Shown: positions 32,562-46,030 of the stretch, in pieces
Layout: each line of letters starts with the position of its first letter
How positions within the stretch are numbered: the stretch's first letter is position 1
Assembly: GCF_020037015.1 (NCBI RefSeq)
Contig: NZ_JAIQDE010000002.1
Span: forward strand, 62,001 to 126,000
Origin: Corallococcus sp. AS-1-6
Lineage (GTDB): Bacteria > Myxococcota > Myxococcia > Myxococcales > Myxococcaceae
Direction: 5' to 3'
DNA: 64,000 nucleotides
The notes under the pieces: generated by a model
What the model saw: only the letters and a program-made list of their open reading frames with translations
What the model was told of the DNA's origin: nothing
Databases searched by the model: none
Translations under genes and position numbers: made by a program

Positions 32562-34058
32562 TCAGGGCACGGTCAGCGCGCGCAGCAGGCGCCCGCCGCC
32601 GGGGCCGGCCACGCGCAACAGCAGCGTGCTGCCCTTGGGCGCGGCGCGGATGGCCGAGGCCAGCTCCTTCGCGCTCGCGATGGGCTTCTTGTTCGCCTCC
32701 ACCACCAGCATGCCCGGCGTCAACTGCGCGCGGTCCGCGGGCGAGCCCGGGACGATGTCGGTGATCAGTGCTCCGGCGCGCTCGGTGAAGCCGGCCTGGG
32801 ACGCCGTGCGGGCGTCCAGGTCCTGCAGGGACACGCCCACGCGGCGCGAGCTGTCCTGCTCGTCGTTGGCCGACGGCTTCTTCTTGGACAGGCCCTCCAG
32901 GTCCGGCCGGGTGCCCATGGTCACCTTGACGTCCTGCTTCTTGCCGTCGCGGTAGAGGGTCAGCGTGGCGACGCTGTTGGGCTTCTTGAGCGCCACGGTG
33001 CGGGTGAGCTCGCTGTCGGAGCGCACCGGCTTGCCGTCCACGGCCACCACCACGTCGTCCGGCTTGAGCCCGGCCTTCGCCGCAGGGGAGTCGGGGGTGA
33101 TCTGCGTGAGGATGGCGCCCTCGCTCACCGACAGCTTCAGCGCCTGGCCCAGCTCGCGCGTGAGGGGCTGGATGCCCACGCCCAGCCAGCCGCGCGTGAC
33201 GGCGCCCTCCTTCTCCAACTGCGGCAGCAGCGCCTTGATGAGGTTGCTGGGCACGGAGAAGCCGATGCCGGTGCCGCCGCCGACGATGGCGGTGTTGATG
33301 CCCACCACCTCGCCCTTCATGTTGAAGAGCGGGCCACCGGAGTTGCCGGGGTTGATGGCCGCGTCCGTCTGCAGGAAGTCGTCGTACACGCTGGCGCCAA
33401 TCTCCCGGGCGCGGGCGGACAGGATGCCCACGCTCACGCTGGAGGCCAGGCCGAACGGGTTGCCAATGGCCAGCACCCAGTCCCCCACGCGCACGGCGTC
33501 GGAGTCGCCCAGCTTCACGGAGGGGAGCTGATCCACCTTCTCCTTGATCTTCACCACGGCCACGTCGGTGAGCGGGTCGCGGCCCACCACCTCGCCCGTG
33601 AACGAACGGCCGTCATCCAGGCGGATGGTGATGGTGACCGCGTCCTCGATGACGTGGTTGTTGGTGAGCACCAGGCCCTTGGGGTCGATGATGAAGCCGG
33701 ACCCGGCGCCCTGGCGGATCTGCTCGCGCTCGCTGCGGCGGCGGTCCCGCCCGTTGCCGCCGAAGAACCGGTCGAAGAGCGGGTTGTCCTCCATGCCCTC
33801 CGGCATCTCGGGACGGGCCTGCACGTCCACGTTCACCACCGCGGACTTCACCGACTCCACCAGGGGCGCCAGCGAGGCCAGCGACTGGGCCTCACGCGTG
33901 GCGGGCTGGAGGTTGCCGGCCTGACCGGAGACCGCCTGCTGCGTCTGGGGCGCGGGCGGCTTGGGAGCGGGCGCCTGCGCGAGGGCGAGCGTGGGCGACG
34001 CCAGCACCAGCACGGCGGCCACGAGCTTGCGACGGAACGGAGGGAGCGTGTGGGTCAT
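32562..34058 (-). CDS. DegQ/HtrA-type periplasmic serine protease with two PDZ domains
   Basis: 498 residues from the ATG at 34058 (GAGGA about seven bases upstream; a TTG four codons earlier is weaker). Signal peptide to about residue 27 (ALA-QA). Trypsin-like domain with triad His135 (NNHVIED), Asp165 (DPLTDVAVV), Ser240 (NPGNSGGPLFN), followed by two PDZ domains (about 290-385 and 400-498). Family role: degrading or chaperoning misfolded envelope proteins. Next on the same strand after the GH57 gene, but separated by a hairpin and a 100-base gap. Confidence 0.93.
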   Translation of the reverse strand: MTHTLPPFRRKLVAAVLVLASPTLALAQAPAPKPPAPQTQQAVSGQAGNLQPATREAQSLASLAPLVESVKSAVVNVDVQARPEMPEGMEDNPLFDRFFGGNGRDRRRSEREQIRQGAGSGFIIDPKGLVLTNNHVIEDAVTITIRLDDGRSFTGEVVGRDPLTDVAVVKIKEKVDQLPSVKLGDSDAVRVGDWVLAIGNPFGLASSVSVGILSARAREIGASVYDDFLQTDAAINPGNSGGPLFNMKGEVVGINTAIVGGGTGIGFSVPSNLIKALLPQLEKEGAVTRGWLGVGIQPLTRELGQALKLSVSEGAILTQITPDSPAAKAGLKPDDVVVAVDGKPVRSDSELTRTVALKKPNSVATLTLYRDGKKQDVKVTMGTRPDLEGLSKKKPSANDEQDSSRRVGVSLQDLDARTASQAGFTERAGALITDIVPGSPADRAQLTPGMLVVEANKKPIASAKELASAIRAAPKGSTLLLRVAGPGGGRLLRALTVP

Positions 34059-34160: not shown

Positions 34161-35750
34161 TCAACCGGGCCGGTAGACGCGGTAGTCCAGCTCGGGGAAC
34201 AGGTTGTCGCGGTCTTCGACGTGGGACAGCCAGGACTCGTCAACGGTGCCGGCGCGCACCTGGTCGTGCAGGCGCAGGAAGCGCTGCAGGTGCTCCTTCG
34301 TGCGGCGCACGGCGTAGTCCACCATGGTGCCGGTCTTCATGATGAAGGCCCAATCGGAGGCCTGCGCCAGCAGCAGCTCGCGCGCGGCCTGGTTCAGCGC
34401 CCGGCGCTTGAGGGACGGCGCGTCCGGGAAGTCCCGGGCCAGCTCCACCATCTGCCGCGCCGCGTGGGTGAGGTGCCGGTAGATCCAGTCGTTGGTGCCA
34501 TCCAGCCACATGTTCGCGTAGCCGCCCGCGCCCCACGAGGACAGGGGCGGCGTCGCCACCTGGTTCTCCGGGTGCTCACGCAGGTCGTCCAGCGGGCTGA
34601 TGAGCGTGAAGCGGCTGGGGTTGCGCGCGGCCTGGCGGATGAGCGCGTCGATGAAGTGGGGGCCCTCGAACCACCAGTGGCCGAAGAGCTCCGCGTCATA
34701 GGGCGCGACGACCACGGGCTTGCGGCCGCCCATGCGGGACGCGAGGTATTCGAACTGGCGCTCGCGGTTGAAGAGGAAGTTGCCCGCGTGGACCCAGGCG
34801 CGCTCGCGGGCGGCGGCCGGGTCGTAGGGCTGCTTGTCGTTCGTCTTGCCGGTGATGCGGAAGTACTTGAAGCCGGTGTTCTTGCGGTCGCCGGTGGGCT
34901 GGATGAAGGGCCGGATGTAGTCCAGGTCCAGGTCCCAGCCGATGTCCCGGTAGAACTCGCGGTAGACGGGGTCGCCGGGGTAGCCGTGCTCGGTGCTCCA
35001 GACCTGCTGGCTGCTCTCCGGGTCGCGCGCGAAGGCGGCCACGCCGGGCTCGGTGAAGATGGGCGCGTAGGGGCCGTGCAGCGGGCGGGGCGTGGCGTCC
35101 GTGAGCGCGTGCGTGTCCACGAAGAAGTAGCGGATGCGCTCGGCGGAGAGGATGCGCTCCAGGCCCGGGTAGTAGCCGCACTCGGCCAGCCAGATGCCGG
35201 CGGGGTCGCGGCCGAAGTTCTGGCGGTAGTGGTTCGCCGCGACCGTCACCTGGGCGCGCACGGCCTCCGGCGTCTGCTGCATGAGCGGCAGGAAGCCGTG
35301 GGTCGCGTTGCAGGTGAGGATGTCCAGGTGGCCGGAGTCCTGGAGCCTGCGGAACGCGGCCACCAGGTCGCGCCGGTAGTGGTTGTGGTACGCGAGCCGC
35401 AGCGATTCGAAGTGGTCGCGGTGGAAGACGGCCAGCGGGTGGAAGGTGGGGTCGTCCCGGGTGCGGTGCACCTCGCGGGCGCCCAGTTCGCAGAGCGAAT
35501 CCAGCCGCCGGGCGTAGCGCTCGCGCAGCAGGTCGTCGTTGAGCATCGACACGAGCGTGGGCGAGAGCGTCATCGTCACCCGGAAGGGGACGCGGTCCTC
35601 GACCAGCTTGTCGAACACGCGCAACAGCGGCAGGTACGTCTCGGAGATGGCTTCGTAGAGCCAGTCCTCCTCGAGGAAGTCTTCGTACTCGGGGTGGCGG
35701 ACGAACGGCAGGTGCGCGTGAAGGACCAGCGCGAGGGAGCCCAGGCTCAT
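34161..35750 (-). CDS. GH57-family 1,4-alpha-glucan branching enzyme-like protein
   Basis: 529 residues from MSLGSLALVLHAHLPFVRHPE, the hallmark opening of GH57. Catalytic nucleophile Glu190 in WLAECGYYPG and acid/base Asp352 in PYDAELFGHWWFEG; the C-terminal helical region (about 430-520) is the DUF1957-type lid that distinguishes branching enzymes from amylases. Forms alpha-1,6 branches in glycogen. It lies 26 bases after the DUF4912 gene, and next to a divergent GT4 gene, an arrangement that suggests one polysaccharide-synthesis unit. No ribosome-binding site is obvious at the start. Confidence 0.9.
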   Translation of the reverse strand: MSLGSLALVLHAHLPFVRHPEYEDFLEEDWLYEAISETYLPLLRVFDKLVEDRVPFRVTMTLSPTLVSMLNDDLLRERYARRLDSLCELGAREVHRTRDDPTFHPLAVFHRDHFESLRLAYHNHYRRDLVAAFRRLQDSGHLDILTCNATHGFLPLMQQTPEAVRAQVTVAANHYRQNFGRDPAGIWLAECGYYPGLERILSAERIRYFFVDTHALTDATPRPLHGPYAPIFTEPGVAAFARDPESSQQVWSTEHGYPGDPVYREFYRDIGWDLDLDYIRPFIQPTGDRKNTGFKYFRITGKTNDKQPYDPAAARERAWVHAGNFLFNRERQFEYLASRMGGRKPVVVAPYDAELFGHWWFEGPHFIDALIRQAARNPSRFTLISPLDDLREHPENQVATPPLSSWGAGGYANMWLDGTNDWIYRHLTHAARQMVELARDFPDAPSLKRRALNQAARELLLAQASDWAFIMKTGTMVDYAVRRTKEHLQRFLRLHDQVRAGTVDESWLSHVEDRDNLFPELDYRVYRPG

Positions 35751-35776
35751 AGGTCGGTCGGAGAGGCCGTGCGGGT

Positions 35777-38302
35777 TCACTTCCGTCCACGGCGCGAGGG
35801 CCGGGACTTGGAGGACTTGGAGCCCGAGGGCTTGGGGTCCGGTGGGTTCTGGGCCGCCTTCGTGGGCGCGGCGGGCGGGGACGTCACGGTGTCCGTCTTC
35901 GCGGGCTCGGGGCTCGTGGGCGCGGCGGCCGGTGCGGCACGTCGCGTGGCCTCGGCGGCCTCGCGGGCCTTGTCGAGTGCACGCTGTTCGGACGCGGAGG
36001 GGCCGCGCGCCACGCTCAAGGCCCATGGGTCCCTGGGAGGCTCGGGCTCCGTGGGCCGCCACGAATCCGTGGAGGCCGCGCCCTGCGTTGATGGACCGGA
36101 CCCCGCCGGAGCCGAGGTCGCGGCGGGACGAGACGACGAGAGTTCACGCGCTTCGAGCACGTCACCCCGTGAGCGCGGCCCCTCCGGAGACCAGGCATCC
36201 GAGCCCCCGGCCGCAAGTGACGCCTCGGTTTGATCCGGCACACCCGCGGCACGATCCGCGGACGGGGAGCGCTGATCCCAAGCGCCCGCCGCCCGAGGCG
36301 CCGTCACGTACTGCTGATCCGACGCACCCGTGGCGCGATCCACGGACAGGTAGCGTTGATCCGAAGCGCCCGCCGCGCGCGGCACGGTGAGGTACTGCTG
36401 GTCCGAAGCACCCGTCGCGCGGTCCACGGACAGATAGCGCTGGTCCGAGGCCCCCGCCGCACGCGGCACGGTGAGGTACTGCTGGTCCGAAGCGCCCTCG
36501 ACGCGAGGCATGCTCAGGTACTGCTGGTCCGAAGCGCCCGGCGCACGCGGCACGGTGAGGTACCGCTGATCCGAAGCGCCCGCGGCACGGGGCACGCTCA
36601 AGTAGCGCTGGTCCGAAGTCCCCGGCGCGCGTGGCGCCTCCAGGGTCCCCTGCCCTCCCGCCACGTACCGCTGGTCCGAAGCGCCCGGGGCACGCGGCAC
36701 CTCCAGATAGCGGTACTCCGAAACGCCGCCCGGCAGCAGCATCTGTCCGTACCGCTGATCCGAAGCACCCGGCGTGCGCGGCACCTCCAGATACGGGGCT
36801 CCCGCGACCTCTCCACCGTAGCGCTGGTCCGAAGCCCCCGGCGCGCGCGGCACCTCCAGATACGGGGCCCCCGCAACCTCTCCACCGTAGCGCTGGTCCG
36901 AAGCCCCCGGAGCCAGCTCCACGGCCAGGTAGCGCTGATCCGACGCCCCGGGTGCGCGAGACGGGGCCAGCACCGCGCCCTCACCGAGCGTCGCCTCCCC
37001 CACGCGCGCGTACTGCTGGTCCGACGCCCCGGGCGCTCGCGGCGCGCTCTCCAGATACTCCTCCTCCACATAGCGCTGGTCCGAGGCCCCGGGGACGCGC
37101 GGCGCATCGACATAGTCCTCGATGCGCTCGCGGTGGACCTCCGGCTCGTCCACCACCCCGGCGCTCCCCGGCAACCGCACCCGGCGCCAGGTGACGTATT
37201 CGCGCTCCTCCACCCGGGGAACTCGCGCGGACGCCGCCGCGGGGACGGCTTCGCGCAGCCGGTCCACCACCGGCGGAGGCGGCATGCGCAGGAACCGGAT
37301 GGACGTGTCCGCGGACGGCCCCGCGGGCGGCAGTGTGGCCCGATTGGACGAATGTCCGATGCGGCGCGACCGGCCATCCGAACCGACGAAGTGCGCCTCC
37401 ACCCGGTACGTGCGCCCGGGCGTCATGCCCTGCAGATAGAAGCTGCGCGACTCCAGCGCGAAGTCCACCTCGCGCGACACGCCCTCGCCGTCGAACACCT
37501 TCAGCACCGCGCGCGGCACCGGCAGGCCGTCCAGCGCCCGGCTCCGGCTCGCGGCGCTGAAGTCCCAGAAGACGAAGAGCGTGTGCGGATCCCTCGCGAG
37601 CAGCACCATCGCGTCGTCCTGGTAGTCCAGGGGCAGCATGGCCAGGTGCTCGTTGCGCTCGGGCGACGCGTCCGCCGGAGGAAGGCGCGGCGCCTGCTCC
37701 TCCAGGAGGTGATGGCGGCGCGCCTCCTTCTCCCCCGCCATCTTCGTCACGAAGAACCCCTCCACCAGGGGCTCGGCGGCATGCGGCGGCTCGCTCACGG
37801 GCGCGGGCGTCGCGGAGGCGGGCACCTCGCCCTTGGGCGAACCTGACGGGCGCGGCGTCGCCGTCTCCGGCCCCAGGGACTGCGTGTCCTCGTCGTCCGG
37901 GTCGCGGCGCGTCTTCGCGCGGGCGGGGAACGTCACCACGCGCGCGGGCCGCGTCCTGGGGCCACCGCTGGGCTCCGTGATGGGCTCCTCGGAAAGTTCT
38001 CGTGCCTGCGGCGCGGCGGCACCCTCGGACGGAGGCAGGGGCACGGACTCGGGCGTCGGGCTCCTCGCGGAGCGGGAGTCCGCCCGGCCGGAGTCCAGCG
38101 AGCGCTCCTCGCCGGGCACGGCACCGGAGCCGCGCCGGGACGTCGCCAGCCCGGCCATGCGCGCGAGCCGCCCCAGGGCGGGAATGCGCTCGGCCAGCGT
38201 GGAGACCAGCTCCCGCCCGCGGGACGCGCCAGCTCCCTCCCGGAGAAATTTCCGGGCTAGCTGCCGCAGGTAGCTCACGGTGACGCCCTTCCGCTCATCC
38301 AT
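35777..38302 (-). CDS. DUF4912 protein with long tandem SDQ[RQ]Y repeat tail
   Basis: 841 residues from the ATG at 38302 (GAGG seven bases upstream). N-terminal helix (SYLRQLARKFLRE) resembles a Rho-N/SAP-like segment, then an acidic Pro-rich linker, then DUF4912 at about 225-345 (LARDPHTLFVFWDFSAASR; GMTPGRTYRVEAHFVG), a predicted carbohydrate- or glucan-enzyme-associated Ig-like domain. From about residue 395 to 695 the chain is a low-complexity tandem array: 15 copies of SDQRY or SDQQY, each after a Pro/Ala/Gly lead such as PRAPGA, plus degenerate copies. The end is Lys/Arg rich (SKSRPSRRGRK). Upstream partner of the GH57 gene. Confidence 0.85.
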   Translation of the reverse strand: MDERKGVTVSYLRQLARKFLREGAGASRGRELVSTLAERIPALGRLARMAGLATSRRGSGAVPGEERSLDSGRADSRSARSPTPESVPLPPSEGAAAPQARELSEEPITEPSGGPRTRPARVVTFPARAKTRRDPDDEDTQSLGPETATPRPSGSPKGEVPASATPAPVSEPPHAAEPLVEGFFVTKMAGEKEARRHHLLEEQAPRLPPADASPERNEHLAMLPLDYQDDAMVLLARDPHTLFVFWDFSAASRSRALDGLPVPRAVLKVFDGEGVSREVDFALESRSFYLQGMTPGRTYRVEAHFVGSDGRSRRIGHSSNRATLPPAGPSADTSIRFLRMPPPPVVDRLREAVPAAASARVPRVEEREYVTWRRVRLPGSAGVVDEPEVHRERIEDYVDAPRVPGASDQRYVEEEYLESAPRAPGASDQQYARVGEATLGEGAVLAPSRAPGASDQRYLAVELAPGASDQRYGGEVAGAPYLEVPRAPGASDQRYGGEVAGAPYLEVPRTPGASDQRYGQMLLPGGVSEYRYLEVPRAPGASDQRYVAGGQGTLEAPRAPGTSDQRYLSVPRAAGASDQRYLTVPRAPGASDQQYLSMPRVEGASDQQYLTVPRAAGASDQRYLSVDRATGASDQQYLTVPRAAGASDQRYLSVDRATGASDQQYVTAPRAAGAWDQRSPSADRAAGVPDQTEASLAAGGSDAWSPEGPRSRGDVLEARELSSSRPAATSAPAGSGPSTQGAASTDSWRPTEPEPPRDPWALSVARGPSASEQRALDKAREAAEATRRAAPAAAPTSPEPAKTDTVTSPPAAPTKAAQNPPDPKPSGSKSSKSRPSRRGRK
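36215..37110 (-). repeat. Tandem array encoding [PA]GASDQ[RQ]Y, period about 42 bp in the best part
   Basis: Inside the DUF4912 gene. The most regular block (about 36260-36640) repeats every 14 codons with alternating Arg and Gln before Tyr and variable leads (PRAA, DRAT, PRAP). A second block near 36770-36900 duplicates a longer 23-codon unit including GGEVAGAPYLEVPR. Protein sequence is better conserved than DNA at third positions, so the repeats are under selection. Confidence 0.9.
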
Positions 38303-38333
38303 GGACACCTCGCCTCGTTATGACGCGGCATAC

Positions 38334-38396
38334 AGGGGGTCAACGCATCCGTCACGGGATGTGTTGTTCCGCCGACCCCCTACTTCATCCGTCACG
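38334..38396. promoter_or_regulatory. Nested inverted and direct repeats in the divergent DUF4912/GT4 region
   Basis: AGGGGGTC (38334-38341) is mirrored by GACCCCCT (38374-38381). Inside, CAACGCATCC (38341-38350) is mirrored with one mismatch by GGATGTGTTG (38357-38366). In addition CATCCGTCACG occurs twice, at 38346-38356 and 38386-38396, 40 bases apart. The only shared regulatory space of the divergent pair. Confidence 0.5.
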
Positions 38397-38400
38397 CCCG

Positions 38401-38429
38401 ATGACACCTCACCCCTGTCCAAGTATCCT
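38401..38429 (+). promoter_or_regulatory. Promoter of the GT4 gene, probably giving a leaderless mRNA
   Basis: ATGACA (38401-38406, 5/6 to the -35 consensus), 17-base spacer, TATCCT (38424-38429, 4/6). Transcription would begin near 38436, one to three bases before the TTG start codon at 38438, and no ribosome-binding site exists. Confidence 0.5.
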
Positions 38430-38437
38430 GCGACCGC

Positions 38438-41338
38438 TTGAGTGACCTGCCCAGACTTCTCCTGTGCAGCTTCGACGTCATCCCCGGCCCGTCTGGCTCC
38501 TCACGCCGACTGACCGAGTATCTGAAGGCGTTGCCTGATCGCTTCTCCGTGGTGGTGCTGTCGGCGAAGACGCCCGACCACTCCCATATCGAGAAGTACC
38601 AGGGCGCCCGGCTGCTCCGCGTCCCGGTAGGCTCCGGGGACCTGGCGTCGCGCATCCAGTCCTTTGAGCGGGCCGTGCGCCGCCAGTTGGAGAGCGAGGA
38701 CTACGCGCTCGCCCACTTCACGGACCCCTTTGGGGGCTACGCGCTCTGCGAGCTGAAGGCGGACTACGGCTACCGCCTCATCTATGAGGCGCAGACCTTC
38801 CCCTCCCAGGAGCTGCGCTACACCCATCCGCAGACGGACGGGGACCGCCGCTTCCTGTCGAAGATCCGCCGCCAGGAGCTGTTCTGCCTGATGAACGCGG
38901 ACCTCGTCGTCACCGGCTCGCAGACGACGCGCGCGTACATCCAGGGGCTGGGCGCGGCGGAGGACCAACTGCGCACGATCCGCGCGCCCGTGGACCTGAA
39001 GCCGTACGACCCGGAGGTGCTCGGCGCCCCGGACGGCTCGCCCCTGCGCATGATGTACCTGGGCAGCCACGTGGGCTGGCAGGGCCTGCCCACCCTCCTG
39101 CGCGCCACCGCGCTCGCGTCCCAGCAGGTGGACGTGCGCCTGACGCTGGTGGGCGCGCACCATCCGGACTGGAAGCCCCACCTGGAGGACCTGGTCAACG
39201 ACCTGGGCATCAAGGAGAAGGTCGACTTCCAGCCGCCCGTCGCGCACGACGACCTGGTCAAGGTGCTGGCGCTGGCGGACGTGGGCGTGCTGCCGCTGGA
39301 CGACTCGGAGCGCAACCGGCTCCAGGGCGGACCGCTGGCCAAGGTCTCCGAGTACCTGGCCGCTGGCCGGCCGGTCATCGCCGCGGACCTGCCCGTCACC
39401 CGCGAGCTGCTTCCAAAGGACGCGGCCGTCTTCTTCCCTCCGGGCGACAGCCGCGCCCTCTCCGAGCGCATCCTGGACCTGGCGCGCGACGTGCCCCGCC
39501 GCGTGGCGCTGGGCAAGGCCGGGCGCGCGTTCGCGGAGAAGGTGTTGGACGCGGGGCTCATCCGGGGCCAGTTGCTGGACCTCTATGACTCGCTGCTGGA
39601 GAAGCGCGGCCACGTCCCGGTCGAAGCCGCCAGCGAGCCGCCCGACGTCACGATGACGGGCACGCCCACGAACCGGCTCGCGAGCCTGGGCATGCCGGAG
39701 GCGTCCCAGCCCGCGGCGCCCAGGCCGCCCTCGAAGCCGGCGCCTCAGGCCGGGGCCGACGAAGCCGCCCCGCCGCCCGCGAAGGAGGTCCCGGCGGAGG
39801 ACCCGCCCGTGGTGATGGGCATGGCCCTGGACGACGGGATGGACACCCGGCTCGTCAAGACCGAGCCGGACATGCGGCCGGACGAAGTGCCCATGGTCAT
39901 GGGCCTGCCACTGCGCGAGTCAGGCAAGTCCGATCCGGCCCCCGCGAGCCGGGAAGCCACGCCCCCGCCGGAGCCCGTGGCCGCCTCCGCCTCCAGGACG
40001 ACCGACGACACCGCGAAGACGGCGCTGCCCTCCGCCCCCGCGAAGGCCGAGGAGCCGGAACCGCTGGGAGGCCGTGGCGCGGAGCCGGCTCCCCCCACGG
40101 AGATGGTGACGAGCCCCCTGGTGAAGGCCCTGGGCTTGAAGGATGCCGGTGGGGACGACGCCGGGGACTCCGAGGATGTCTCCTCCGGAGCGACGGCCGT
40201 GGTGCGCCGGCCTGTGGCGGACGACGACACGAGCACGCCGGCCCCCACGCCCGTCGTGCGCAGGCCGGTCTCCGAGGACGATGAACGCCCTCCCTCGCCT
40301 GTCGTGCGCTGGCCCGCCTCCGAGGAAGAGCCTCCCGCGCCCACGCCCGTCGTGCGCAAGCCGGTCTCCGAGGACGAAGAACGCGCACCCACGCCCGTCG
40401 TGCGCAGGCCGGCCTCCGAGGAGGAAGCTCCCGCGCCCACGCCCATCGTGCGCAGGCCGGCCTCCGAGGAAGAGCCTCCCGCGCCCACGCCCATCGTGCG
40501 CCGTCCCCCCTCCCTCTCGGAGGACGAGGAGCGGGCCCCCACCCCGGTCGTGCGCCGGGCCGGGGTCATGCGTGAGGAAGAGGAGCCTCCCGCGCCCACG
40601 CCCATCGTGCCCATGCGCTCGCTGCAGAACGGGGCGCGAAGCACGGGCGCCGGCCGTGCGCAGCGGCCAGCGGATCCGGTCCCCTCTGAGCCTCCGCGTC
40701 TCTTCCCCACTCCCTCTCCCATGGCCGACGCGGACAAACCGCCCATCCGTGGCGGCCTCGCCGCGGATCCAGGCCGGCCCGCCTCCCGCCCCCCCGTGCT
40801 CACGGAGTCCGACAAGCCGCCCATCCGTGGTGGCTCCGTCTCCGACGCGGACCGCCCGCCGCAGCTACCGCCCCGCGCCGCCGCGCCGCCGCCCGTTCCG
40901 CGCCAGGGACCGCCGCCCCGGCTGATCCCCACGCCCCCCGTGCTGAAGCCCTCGGCCGCGCACCCGGACGATGAGCCGGAGGAGATCGCCGCCGACGAGG
41001 CCCTGTCCCTGGACGACGACGCCGGGAACACGCCCTCCACCGCCAGCGCGGCGCTGGAAGAGGCGGAGGAGATCGCCGCCGACGAGGTCCAGGACGCGGA
41101 CTCGCTCGACGTGGAGGCCGCGGACGCCGAGGACCCGGGGCCCCCGCCCGCGCCCCCCGACTCCACCCTCAACCCGTGGTTCGCCCAGCTCGCGCACGGG
41201 TACTGTCCCCCCGAGGGCGCCCGCTTCGCCCGGCACACCCCGCCCACCAACTTCCCCGGGCGGGATCCGGAAGCAGGCGAGTCCCCCGGGTCGGTCCCGC
41301 CTGTCGGCCAGGGAGCGGTTCGCGGCAAGAACTCGTGA
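38438..41338 (+). CDS. GT4-family glycosyltransferase with long disordered repeat tail
   Basis: 966 residues beginning at TTG; there is no alternative upstream start. Residues 1-~390 form a GT-B glycosyltransferase: N-terminal PGPSGSSRRLTEYLKAL; nucleotide-sugar half with YLGSHVGWQGLPTLL, LADVGVLPLDD, and VSEYLAAGRPVIAADLPVTRELL, the GT4 donor-binding region. From ~400 to the end is low complexity, Pro/Ala/Glu rich, with recurrent PAPTPVVRRPASEEE-like units at about 600-725 and two DKPPIRGG units near 770-800, and an acidic region DEPEEIAADEALSLDDD. A glycosyltransferase with a tail longer than its enzyme is unusual. Divergent from the DUF4912/GH57 pair. Confidence 0.85.
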   Translation: MSDLPRLLLCSFDVIPGPSGSSRRLTEYLKALPDRFSVVVLSAKTPDHSHIEKYQGARLLRVPVGSGDLASRIQSFERAVRRQLESEDYALAHFTDPFGGYALCELKADYGYRLIYEAQTFPSQELRYTHPQTDGDRRFLSKIRRQELFCLMNADLVVTGSQTTRAYIQGLGAAEDQLRTIRAPVDLKPYDPEVLGAPDGSPLRMMYLGSHVGWQGLPTLLRATALASQQVDVRLTLVGAHHPDWKPHLEDLVNDLGIKEKVDFQPPVAHDDLVKVLALADVGVLPLDDSERNRLQGGPLAKVSEYLAAGRPVIAADLPVTRELLPKDAAVFFPPGDSRALSERILDLARDVPRRVALGKAGRAFAEKVLDAGLIRGQLLDLYDSLLEKRGHVPVEAASEPPDVTMTGTPTNRLASLGMPEASQPAAPRPPSKPAPQAGADEAAPPPAKEVPAEDPPVVMGMALDDGMDTRLVKTEPDMRPDEVPMVMGLPLRESGKSDPAPASREATPPPEPVAASASRTTDDTAKTALPSAPAKAEEPEPLGGRGAEPAPPTEMVTSPLVKALGLKDAGGDDAGDSEDVSSGATAVVRRPVADDDTSTPAPTPVVRRPVSEDDERPPSPVVRWPASEEEPPAPTPVVRKPVSEDEERAPTPVVRRPASEEEAPAPTPIVRRPASEEEPPAPTPIVRRPPSLSEDEERAPTPVVRRAGVMREEEEPPAPTPIVPMRSLQNGARSTGAGRAQRPADPVPSEPPRLFPTPSPMADADKPPIRGGLAADPGRPASRPPVLTESDKPPIRGGSVSDADRPPQLPPRAAAPPPVPRQGPPPRLIPTPPVLKPSAAHPDDEPEEIAADEALSLDDDAGNTPSTASAALEEAEEIAADEVQDADSLDVEAADAEDPGPPPAPPDSTLNPWFAQLAHGYCPPEGARFARHTPPTNFPGRDPEAGESPGSVPPVGQGAVRGKNS

Positions 41339-41437: not shown

Positions 41438-44400
41438 ATGGAGCGTCGCGTCCTCATCGTCGAAAGCCAGAACGACTTCGCACTCAGCATGGCCTCCGTG
41501 CTCAAGAGCGCGGGCTACAACACGGCCATGGCCACCACTGCGTCAGACGCGCAGCGGGAGCTGGAGAAGCGCCGACCCGACCTCGTCGTCGTGCGCGCGG
41601 AGCTGCCGGACCAGTCCGGCTTCGCCCTCTGTGGGCAGATCAAGAAGGGCAAGTGGGGCCAGAACCTGAAGGTCCTCCTGCTCTCCTCCGACTCCGGTGT
41701 GGAGGGTCTGAACAAACACCGTGAGACGCCGGCCGCCGCGGACGGCTACCTCGTCATCCCGTTCGAGATGGGCGAGCTGGCCTCCATGAGCGCGGGCATC
41801 GTGCCGCCCGGCTCCGACGAGTCCGACGCGGACCTGGACGCCGCGCTCTCCGGCCAGCCGCGTGAAGCCCCGCCGCCCATGCCCGGCGTGCGCACGGGCG
41901 CCCCGCCCAAGCTGCCCAAGCGCGAGCGCCGCAGCGCCATGACGGATGAGGACAAGGCCTTCATGGACCGGGCCTTCTCGTCCATCGCGGACCGCAAGGC
42001 GGAGCTGCTGGCGGAGTCGCGTCAGCTCAAGCGCCCGCCCCCGCGCCGCGAGCTGATGGGCACGCCCGAGGGCAAGATTCAAATCCTCCGGGACGAGCTG
42101 AAGACGCGTGAAGCCCAGCTCGCGCGCCTGTCGGAGATCTGGAGCGTCCGCGAGCGCGAGCTGCTCTCCGTCGAGGACCGCCTCCACGAGAAGGACGTGG
42201 AGCTGCAGGGCCTGAAGATGCAGGTGGACGACCTGCTGCGGCGCTTCAACGACGCGCAGCAGTCCATCGTCCAGAAGGAGCGCGAGCACGGCGCCACCGT
42301 CGACGACCTGCTCCTCCAGAAGTTCTCCTCGGAGAAGGACCTCATCGAGGTCGTCGCCTCCAAGGAGAAGGACATCAACGTCCTGCGCAAGGAGGTCAAC
42401 CTCCGCGACGAGGAGCTGGCCCGGCGCGGCGCGGACCTGGAGAGCTGGCGCAACGAGTTCGACAAGCTGGAGAAGCACCTCGGCGTCGTCACGCTGGAGT
42501 TCGAGGTCAAGGAGCAGAAGCTCCAGGACACCGTCCGCGCCAACGAGGCGGACATCCTCCAGTTGCGCGAGCGCGGCGATCAGTTCGAGTCCGAGCTGGC
42601 CCGCACCGTCAGCGAGCGCGACCAGCGCTACGCCGAGCTGGACGGCGAGCTGCAGGCCCTCCAGGAGCGGCTGACCCAGACGGAGCAGGAGCGCGACGCC
42701 ACCGTGCGCGGCCTGGAGGCCCGGGCCACCACGGCGGAGGAGCACGCCAGCCGCTCGGACGCGGAGATTGAGCGCCTCAACGCCGAGCGCGCCGCCCTGG
42801 AGCAGCGCCTCACGCAGCAGGTGGCGGACCTGGAGTCCGACATCGCGCGCGTCACCGGCGAGCGCGACCAGCTCCGGCTGGACAAGGACGCCCTGGAGGC
42901 GGACCTCACGCAGCGCCTGGAGGAGCGGGACGCGAAGATCTCCGCGCTCGACCGCGAGCTGCAGGAGACCATCGCCCGCAACGAGAACAGCGAGGCGGAG
43001 CTCAACGCCACCATCCAGCAGCACCGCGAGCGCATCGGTGAGCTGGAAGGCGAAGTCGAGGCCGTCAAGACGCACCTGGAGGACCGCGAGAACGAGCTGA
43101 CCGCGGAGCTCCAGGCGCTGCAGCAGGCCAAGGACGCGCTGGAGCAGGACCTCACCAGCCAGTTGGAGGACCTGCGCGCGGCGAAGGACGCCCTGGAGGC
43201 GGACCTCAACGGCCAGATTCAAGCGCTCACCGAGCAGCTCGACGCGTCCCAGCGCCAGGGCGAGCAGCTCTCCGCGCGCGTGGCCTCGCTCGAGGACACC
43301 GTCGCCCAGCGCGACGGCACCATCGAGGGCCTGCAGACCGACGTCTCCGACCGCGACGCCCGCATCGCCGAGCTGACCGGCAACCTGGAGGCCACGAGCC
43401 AGCAGCTCTCCGAGACGCAGAACACGCTCTCCAGCACGGAGGCCACGCTCGCGGAGACGCGCGGCGAGCTGGAGGCGACGAGCCAGCAGCTCTCCGAGAC
43501 GCAGGGCACGCTCTCCAACACGGAGGCCACCCTCTCCGAGACGCGCGGCGAGCTGGAGGCCACCAGCCAGCAGCTCTCCGAGACGCAGACGCGCCTGGCG
43601 CAGACGGAGGAGACGCTCTCCACCACGCGCGGCGAGCTGGAGGCCACCAGCCAGACGCTGGCCACCACCGAGTCCACGCTCGCCCAGACGCAGGACACGC
43701 TGGCGCGCACGGAGGCCACGCTCTCCGAGACGCAGGCGACGCTCTCCAGCACCGAGGGCACGCTCGCGGAGACGCGCGGCGAGCTGGAGGCCACCAGCCA
43801 GACCCTGGCGGACACCCAGTCCAAGCTCGCGCAGACGGAGGAGACGCTCTCCACCACGAGCGGTGAGCTGGAGGCCACCAGCCAGAGCCTCTCCGACACG
43901 CAGGCCACGCTCACCAGCACGGAGGGCACGCTCGCGGAGACCCGCGGCGAGCTGGAGGCCACCAGCCAGACGCTGACGGAAACGCAGGCCAGGCTCGCGC
44001 AGACGGAAGGGACGCTCGCGTCCACCCAGGGCGAGCTGGAGGCCACCAGCCAGACGCTGGCCACCACCGAGTCCACGCTCGCCCAGACGCAGGACACGCT
44101 GGCGCGCACGGAGGCCACGCTCTCCGAGACGCAGGCGACGCTCTCCAGCACCGAGGGCACGCTGGCGGAGACGCGCGGTGAGCTGGAGGCCACCAGCCAG
44201 ACGTTGACGCAGACCCAGGAGACCCTGGAGTCGACGCGCGCCGACCTGGCGAAGGTCACCTCGCACCGCGACGAGCTGGACGCGGAGCTCAACGAGACGC
44301 GCGACATCCTCCAGGAGACCAACGGCCTCCTCGCCCGCACCACCGAGGAGCGCGACGCGCGCATCGCGGAGCTGGCGGCGCTCAACACGGCGAAGGACGC

Positions 44401-46030
44401 GCTGGAGCAGGACCTCACCGGCCAGATTGGCCAGTTGCGCGCGGACCTGTCGGAGACGCAGGGGCTCTACGACGCGGAGCGCACCGCCCACGCGGCGCTC
44501 GCGGAGGAGACCACCGCGCGCATCAACGCCCTCACCGGCGAGCGCGACAACCTGTTCGCGGAGCTGAACGCCACCTCGCGGCAGTTGGCCGACACGCAGG
44601 GCCAGCTCGCCAGCACCCAGGACGCGCTCGCCCGCGAGGAGCAGGCCCACGCGCAGTCCCGCGAGGCCGCCGCCAGCGCCCAGGCGGAGCTCACGCGCCA
44701 GCTCACCGAGGCCCAGGCCAACGGCGAGGACCTGGCCGAGCAGCTCATCGTCACCAAGCACGAGCTGGGCACGCGCGTGTCGGAAGTCACGCAACTGTCC
44801 TCCACGCTCGCGCAGACGGAGGACGCGCGGCACCACCTGGAGGACCGCCTCCAGACGCTCACCCACGAGTCGCAGCGCCGTGAGGAGCTCCTCCAGAACG
44901 AGGTCGACACCAAGGGCAAGGAGCTGTCGGACACGCTCCGCAAGCTCACGCACGTGACGCAGGAGAAGATGCGTCAGGCGGAGGTGCTCAACCGCGAGGT
45001 CTCCACCCGCACGGAGCAGGTGAAGCAACTGGAAGGCCAGTTGGAGCACCAGGCCGCCGAGGCGAAGAAGCAGGCGGACGCGCTCCACCAGCAGCTCTCC
45101 AACGTCTCCGGCGAGCTGGACGGCGCGCGCAAGGCCATCGCGGACCGCGACGGACAGCTCCAGCAGGCCGCGAACCAGCAGAAGAAGCTCACCAGCGAGC
45201 GCGACGGGCTGGCCGGACAGCTCCAGCAGGCCCAGGCCCAGGCCCAACAGCAGGCCCAGCAGGCGCAGGCCGCCGCCGCCGAGGCGAAGAAGCAGTCGGA
45301 CGACCTGGCCGCGAAGCTCGCCAAGGCCGAGCAGCGCATCGCCCAGCTCGCCCAGGAGGCCCAGAAGTTCGCCGCCGACACGGAGGCGAAGCTCAAGGAC
45401 GCCCAGGCCCAGTTGCAGGCCCGCACCAAGAAGGCCCAGGACCTGGAGCTGGCGCTGGAGAACGCCCAGAGCACCCGCGCCCGCGCGGAGAAGGACCTCA
45501 ACGCCCGCGTCGCCGCGGCGGAGACCAAGGCCAACGAGGCGGCCGCCAGGCTCGCCACGGCGCAGAAGGAGCGCAAGGACCTGGAGGCCCGTCAGGCCAA
45601 GGAGCTGGAGGACCTCAACGCCAAGCAGAAGGCGGAGCTCGAGCGCCGCGAGGCCATCAAGGCCCAGGAGGTCGCCCGCCTCCAGACGTCCGTCCAGGAG
45701 AAGAGCAAGGCGCTCAAGGTCGCCGAGCTGGAGCTGGCCCGCTACAAGACCAAGGCCCCCGCCGCGGCCGCCGCCCCCGCCGCGAAGGCCGGCGCCAAGG
45801 CCCCCGAGGACGAGCACCTGGCCGCCACCGTCCAGGCCAACCCGGTCATCCCGGCAGCCGCCAAGCCTCCGGCCAAGGCCGCCGCAAAGCCGGCCGCGAA
45901 GAAGGCGGCGCCCACCCCCGTCCCCGTGGACGAGGAGGCCCCGGAGCGCACCATGGTGATGCAGTTGCCCACCGCCCCCGAAGCCGGTGAGGACGACTGG
46001 ACGGCGCTCGTCGACGAGCTCGACAAGTAG
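41438..46030 (+). CDS. aglZ: AglZ-like gliding protein: pseudo-receiver plus giant coiled coil
   Basis: 1530 residues from ATG 41438 (AAGGG five bases upstream; a GTG four codons earlier is possible). Residues 1-~125 have the receiver fold but lack its chemistry: VLIVES in place of the acidic pair, and Arg53 where the phospho-acceptor Asp belongs. Residues ~170-1440 are continuous coiled coil, including many TLSETRGELEATSQ-type repeats at ~650-930. The tail is Ala/Lys/Pro-rich and acidic. This plan matches AglZ of M. xanthus (about 1400 residues), a filament-forming focal-adhesion protein that works with MglA; FrzS has the same plan but is far shorter. Confidence 0.85.
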   Translation: MERRVLIVESQNDFALSMASVLKSAGYNTAMATTASDAQRELEKRRPDLVVVRAELPDQSGFALCGQIKKGKWGQNLKVLLLSSDSGVEGLNKHRETPAAADGYLVIPFEMGELASMSAGIVPPGSDESDADLDAALSGQPREAPPPMPGVRTGAPPKLPKRERRSAMTDEDKAFMDRAFSSIADRKAELLAESRQLKRPPPRRELMGTPEGKIQILRDELKTREAQLARLSEIWSVRERELLSVEDRLHEKDVELQGLKMQVDDLLRRFNDAQQSIVQKEREHGATVDDLLLQKFSSEKDLIEVVASKEKDINVLRKEVNLRDEELARRGADLESWRNEFDKLEKHLGVVTLEFEVKEQKLQDTVRANEADILQLRERGDQFESELARTVSERDQRYAELDGELQALQERLTQTEQERDATVRGLEARATTAEEHASRSDAEIERLNAERAALEQRLTQQVADLESDIARVTGERDQLRLDKDALEADLTQRLEERDAKISALDRELQETIARNENSEAELNATIQQHRERIGELEGEVEAVKTHLEDRENELTAELQALQQAKDALEQDLTSQLEDLRAAKDALEADLNGQIQALTEQLDASQRQGEQLSARVASLEDTVAQRDGTIEGLQTDVSDRDARIAELTGNLEATSQQLSETQNTLSSTEATLAETRGELEATSQQLSETQGTLSNTEATLSETRGELEATSQQLSETQTRLAQTEETLSTTRGELEATSQTLATTESTLAQTQDTLARTEATLSETQATLSSTEGTLAETRGELEATSQTLADTQSKLAQTEETLSTTSGELEATSQSLSDTQATLTSTEGTLAETRGELEATSQTLTETQARLAQTEGTLASTQGELEATSQTLATTESTLAQTQDTLARTEATLSETQATLSSTEGTLAETRGELEATSQTLTQTQETLESTRADLAKVTSHRDELDAELNETRDILQETNGLLARTTEERDARIAELAALNTAKDALEQDLTGQIGQLRADLSETQGLYDAERTAHAALAEETTARINALTGERDNLFAELNATSRQLADTQGQLASTQDALAREEQAHAQSREAAASAQAELTRQLTEAQANGEDLAEQLIVTKHELGTRVSEVTQLSSTLAQTEDARHHLEDRLQTLTHESQRREELLQNEVDTKGKELSDTLRKLTHVTQEKMRQAEVLNREVSTRTEQVKQLEGQLEHQAAEAKKQADALHQQLSNVSGELDGARKAIADRDGQLQQAANQQKKLTSERDGLAGQLQQAQAQAQQQAQQAQAAAAEAKKQSDDLAAKLAKAEQRIAQLAQEAQKFAADTEAKLKDAQAQLQARTKKAQDLELALENAQSTRARAEKDLNARVAAAETKANEAAARLATAQKERKDLEARQAKELEDLNAKQKAELERREAIKAQEVARLQTSVQEKSKALKVAELELARYKTKAPAAAAAPAAKAGAKAPEDEHLAATVQANPVIPAAAKPPAKAAAKPAAKKAAPTPVPVDEEAPERTMVMQLPTAPEAGEDDWTALVDELDK
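43631..43764 (+). repeat. 134-bp direct repeat, copy 1, within aglZ
   Basis: Identical to 44030-44163 over 134 bases; the copies are offset by 399 bases (133 codons), so the frame and the heptad register are kept. Sign of recent internal duplication or conversion. Confidence 0.85.
44030..44163 (+). repeat. 134-bp direct repeat, copy 2, within aglZ
   Basis: Second copy of the 43631-43764 repeat. Divergence begins immediately after the end in a synonymous change (GCTC versus GCTG). Confidence 0.85.

Follow-up and report, generated by a model that had tools for sequence, protein, structure and literature searches.

The window, i.e. the whole 64 kb stretch of Corallococcus sp. AS-1-6 DNA that was analyzed, harbors two gene pairs that diverge from a short control region. 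On the minus strand, a DUF4912 protein of 841 aa (35777-38302) is followed after a gap of 26 bp by a GH57 enzyme of 529 aa (34161-35750). The divergent plus-strand genes encode a GT4 glycosyltransferase of 966 aa (38438-41338) and an AglZ-type protein of 1530 aa (41438-46030). The initial annotation had treated GT4, DUF4912 and GH57 as one unit. These three genes are placed as described, but the unit was drawn one gene short, as the AglZ-type gene belongs to the conserved block. Downstream of GH57 lies a gene for a DO/HtrA-type serine protease (32562-34058 of the window), which adjoins in most loci of family f1 and not in f8.

Divergent control region and conservation of the block

The 135 bp between the start codons of GT4 and DUF4912 (38303-38437, no strand assigned) contain blocks that are invariant in 12 relatives, including GGGTCAACG and GATGACA...TATCCT, confirming the proposed shared divergent region. 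A promoter-like ATGACA-N17-TATCCT reads to GT4, and the reverse complement of GGGTCAACG provides a -35-like TTGACC towards DUF4912, as assigned by eye.

In all 68 genomes that carry both genes on one contig, GT4 and DUF4912 were at most 4 kb apart, and the three genes of the initial annotation adjoin in other myxobacteria; much of this adjacency comes from a single family, in which gene order tends to be conserved anyway. Among the sampled loci, the four-gene block was present in families f1 and f8, and for f7 the observations were consistent with a block cut by contig ends. Sampled loci of f2, f3, f4, f6 and f9 displayed DUF4912-GH57 only. The GT4s of families sharing the block are 34-51% identical. 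Beyond titled MAG records, taxon names of the relatives were inferred. The conserved block is best read as two back-to-back gene pairs, DUF4912-GH57 and GT4-AglZ.

The GH57 enzyme resembles AmyC

The GH57 protein matched PF03065 (Glyco_hydro_57) with 111.9 bits (cut-off 21.2) and PF09210 (BE_C) with 143.2 bits (cut-off 25). Its best solved match was AmyC of Thermotoga maritima (PDB 2b5d), with an E value of 1e-169 and a full-length alignment. E190, the nucleophile, and D352, the acid/base, occupy the positions of E185 and D349 in AmyC. The catalytic loop is short and devoid of the tip Tyr; it aligned without gaps to AmyC and with gaps to long-loop enzymes. Scores of 325 and 320 bits were below the NCBIfam equivalog cut-offs for the Thermus and Thermococcales branching enzymes (1000 and 920 bits), and by this comparison the protein is related to the two long-loop equivalogs but lies outside of them.

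AmyC was demonstrated to branch glucans with high hydrolysis (PMC6616209). The window enzyme shares with AmyC (528 aa) its length, an end-to-end alignment, nucleophile, acid/base and short loop, and matches an alpha-glucan branching enzyme of the AmyC type. It is encoded downstream of a DUF4912 gene, a kind of gene that T. maritima possesses as well, and its activity is a predicted one. It is not the only branching enzyme of the source genome, which also encodes GlgA and a GH13 GlgB. Several sampled genomes of the order yielded matches to GH57 and GlgA (glycogen synthase) and none to GH13 GlgB.

DUF4912 and GH57 form an ancient pair

In 40 of 40 order-level loci, one of which (L059) is a paralogous copy, DUF4912 immediately precedes GH57 and shares its orientation. 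The two genes also adjoin in most loci of other Myxococcota orders and in MAGs of other phyla including Rokubacteria, judged where the contig extends far enough; a Binatia contig (L086) ends too soon. At a Planctomycetota locus (L088) GH57 lies several kilobases from DUF4912, and L087 revealed no GH57 within the short flank examined. The presence profile across 145 genomes of the order comprised 113 genomes with both genes, 26 with neither and 6 discordant cases. As these genomes, which also underlie the adjacency counts for GT4, are related and not independent, the Fisher p-value of the profile is to be read with reserve. Contig ends or diverged copies seem to explain some of the discordant cases. 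Strongly diverged GH57 genes (33-38% identity) were found beside GT4 in L131 (4195-5466) and L135 (1612-2868) and are possibly decaying, while L134 retained a diverged DUF4912. Genome G063 had no close match to GT4, AglZ or DUF4912. DUF4912-GH57 is an ancient pair, gained and lost together.

A paralogous clade has a GT5 glycogen synthase gene next in line behind GH57. In family f2, GH57 is followed by a GT4 and a protein with a glycogen-debranching domain. This gene context lends good support to a role of DUF4912-GH57 in alpha-glucan metabolism. The initial annotation had assigned alpha-glucan work to all three genes; the AmyC match, the glycogen synthase and debranching neighbors and the co-gain and co-loss bear this out for DUF4912-GH57 but not for the GT4, which tracks AglZ. 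No paper naming GH57 together with DUF4912 was found in the literature searched.

The DUF4912 protein carries a putatively multivalent repeat tail

The DUF4912 domain (37307-37624, minus strand; aa 227-332) matched PF16258 with an E value of 1.5e-18 and 67.6 bits, compared with a gathering cut-off of 29.4. Pfam assigns no function to this family, from which the window protein differs by its long motif tail. The protein is arranged as a SAP/Rho_N-like N-terminus, a linker, an FN3-fold domain and a repeat tail; the Rho_N/SAP-like match was seen in a relative, and the N-terminus of the window protein itself had no family match. AlphaFold2 modeled the domain as a confident beta-sandwich (pLDDT ~98) at residues 70-160 of a folded 241-aa stretch, in which the invariant Trp is W82. 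A Foldseek search with this model matched fibronectin type III domains (best E 1.2e-5).

The tail extends 501 aa past the domain and is rich in Ala, Pro, Arg, Ser and Gly with a repeated GASDQRY unit. It is not generally Tyr/Arg/Gln-rich as had been suggested (Y 4.4%, Q 5.4%). About 16 GASDQ-type units occupy 36260-37100 (minus strand), nine of them at an exact 42-bp spacing (36272-36622). Translated, the 42-bp DNA unit gives 14 residues that follow the pattern GASDQ(R/Q)YL(T/S)V(P/D)RA. The gene contains 16 DNA repeat units compared with about 4 expected in the whole 64 kb window, and the tail has 15 copies of the motif G[AGS][ST][DE] versus 0.27 in shuffles. Elsewhere in the source genome, the GASDQ repeat did not exceed chance outside the DUF4912 gene; a weak match two kilobases from glgA was rejected as a protein of other content.

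Both long tails noted initially, of 501 aa in the DUF4912 protein and 571 aa in the GT4, are real and coding, with repeats far beyond chance. Substitutions against the congener L031 were concentrated at the third codon position (60/53/125 for the DUF4912 and 68/42/127 for the GT4 tail). Tails are also present in the orthologues, ranging from 51 to 519 aa in DUF4912 proteins and from 48 to 1429 aa in GT4s (complete frames).

The GAS[DE] motif recurs 8-16 times in most tails of a distant paralogous DUF4912 clade. It was not above chance in the DUF4912 tails of f2 and canonical f3 nor in GT4 tails. As the f2 and f3 DUF4912 genes adjoin GH57, pairing with GH57 does not depend on this motif. Folding of the tail of a DUF4912 paralogue with a shallow alignment of 11 sequences gave a pLDDT of ~26-40, which is consistent with disorder, and yielded no confident structure such as the solenoid looked for.

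Multivalent scaffolds gather an enzyme via repeated short motifs, as EPYC1 does with Rubisco. A single short motif repeated at regular intervals is a feature expected of such a scaffold, and the DUF4912 tail shares it with EPYC1-type proteins. The motif enrichment supports, for this protein, the multivalency suggested by the initial annotation. A function of the DUF4912 protein as non-catalytic organizer of the branching enzyme is moderately supported.

A conserved peptide at the end of the GT4 tail

The glycosyltransferase domain of the GT4 comprises aa 1-390 and is followed by the Pro/Ala/Glu tail, which contains 20.7% Pro, eight copies of a PTPIV(R) repeat (approximately 40240-40620, plus strand) and two acidic blocks near its end. 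Comparison of relatives revealed a conserved C-terminal peptide, LNPWFAQLAHGYCPPEGARFARHTPPTNFPGRD (approximately 41172-41273, plus strand), and the tail terminates in 'PWFAQLAHGYCPPE...RHTPPTxxPGRD'. The tail varies widely in length, yet this peptide is kept in most copies. It is kept across genera, including those in which DUF4912 or GH57 was not detected, in a tail that is otherwise variable. A diverged form is found in f7 and f8, and the peptide is absent in L046 and L129. Neither a second copy in the genome nor a copy in the PDB was found above chance level. This pattern points to a candidate docking site, whose partner would track AglZ rather than the glucan enzymes.

The GT4 accompanies an AglZ-type gene

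The product of 41438-46030 consists of a pseudo-receiver (aa 1-130) and a coiled coil of ~1,400 residues. By reading the sequence, the position of the phospho-acceptor Asp is taken by Arg. The receiver matched Myxococcus xanthus FrzS with an E value of 2e-13, and a FrzS orthologue is encoded elsewhere in the source genome in a frz-like cluster (L122, 5479-7290; E 2e-60 to PDB 2gkg). FrzS and AglZ are paralogues with decayed receivers, the coiled coil of AglZ being much longer (PMC4546325). AglZ of M. xanthus (MXAN_2991) is found at focal adhesion complexes and binds MglA (PMC4546325, PMC3169522). On account of its decayed receiver, its very long coiled coil and the separate FrzS orthologue, we designate the protein AglZ-type. 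It resembles M. xanthus AglZ in these features, with FrzS as a separate paralogue in both genomes; orthology is deduced from architecture and paralogy, M. xanthus AglZ being compared by description. The coiled coil of the window protein contains long repeated stretches with GELEATSQ- and LSETQ-like units.

A search of the 145 genomes of the order found GT4 and AglZ adjacent, within 8 kb, in all 76 genomes with both best matches on one contig, of which 17 had no DUF4912 match. In L042 and L134 no GT4 was found, and the AglZ-type gene itself stands back to back with DUF4912-GH57. A GT4-AglZ partnership is well supported by gene context. Genera devoid of DUF4912-GH57 keep GT4-AglZ, which argues for an ability of either operon to function without the other. 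The GT4 that follows GH57 in f2 was considered as a counterpart of the window GT4 and rejected; it has no similarity and is a different protein. In view of this finding and of the 17 genomes, the proposed membership of the GT4 in an alpha-glucan unit is not supported.

Model for the two operons

The observed gene identities, adjacencies, co-gain and co-loss, catalytic residues and conserved motifs are explained best by a module for alpha-glucan branching that includes a non-catalytic, multivalent organizer and lies beside a GT4 docking to the AglZ system. We give this explanation an even chance of being correct. In the left operon, GH57 would cut alpha-1,4 chains and re-attach them as branches, as suggested by AmyC. 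The DUF4912 protein would serve as the non-catalytic organizer with its FN3-like domain as a binding surface, and the ~15 G-A-S-D/E motifs of its tail could engage several partners, enzymes or glucans, simultaneously. GASDQRYLTVPRA is a candidate binding peptide, for which GH57, GlgA and glycogen are candidate partners. In the right operon, the presumably disordered tail of a GT4 assumed to be cytoplasmic would present the C-terminal docking peptide. By binding AglZ or partners of this scaffold, the peptide may recruit the enzyme to the complexes of gliding motility. We infer each binding event in this scheme, the sugar and location of the GT4 and any joint action of both operons.

Alternatively, all four genes might serve one process, namely the synthesis or mobilization, at AglZ-marked motility sites, of an alpha-glucan or of a polymer that contains glucan. 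This would account for the retention of the four-gene block in Myxococcaceae and f8, even though the flanking HtrA gene is not kept at the f8 loci, for the invariant blocks in a divergent promoter region common to both operons, and for DUF4912-GH57 standing directly beside AglZ in L042 and L134. However, GT4-AglZ persists where DUF4912 or GH57 was not found, DUF4912-GH57 persists in other families with no GT4-AglZ at the locus, and no paper naming both AglZ and glucan was found in the literature searched. A single joint process is weakly supported and appears possible, albeit rather unlikely.

The conservation across families whose GT4s are 34-51% identical argues against plain gene order, i.e. 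unrelated operons with a common promoter region and with tails resulting from low-complexity drift. Close relatives are expected to retain gene order generally and the wide variation in tail length would suit drift, but chance falls far short of explaining the conservation of GAS[DE] and of the C-terminal peptide of the GT4, and we regard this explanation as unlikely. The adjacency of GT4 and DUF4912 in 68 of 68 genomes would suit one glycogen-granule-like scaffold of GT4, DUF4912 and GH57, as initially envisaged. Such a scaffold is highly improbable, as the GT4 tracks AglZ and not DUF4912-GH57, f2 has another protein as the GT4 neighbor of GH57 and the GT4 tail is devoid of the GAS[DE] motif.

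The branching module beside an AglZ-docking GT4 can be extended to a more daring proposal, which we consider quite improbable: DUF4912 proteins may form a widespread class of multivalent scaffolds for alpha-glucan, in which GAS[DE] tails bring the branching enzyme together with glycogen synthase and which in gliding myxobacteria are wired to AglZ via the GT4 docking peptide, tying carbon stores or a glucan product to gliding. As a domain of unknown function, DUF4912 gains a cross-phylum partner, the AmyC-type GH57, and a testable role. For AglZ, a well-studied scaffold of myxobacterial gliding, a conserved glycosyltransferase partner with a defined peptide is exposed. If both operons were linked, alpha-glucan metabolism would be tied to single-cell gliding.

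Genes flanking the DUF4912-GH57 pair

In some loci of f1 and f8 (L040, 10988-13009; L041, 11278-13536; L065, 4905-7109), the gene that immediately follows GH57 encodes a TPR-repeat protein. In family f11 of the Myxococcota, a DUF4388-DnaJ-TPR protein is encoded directly upstream of DUF4912-GH57 (L089, 6386-8254; L092, 9554-11374; L094, 7832-9811).
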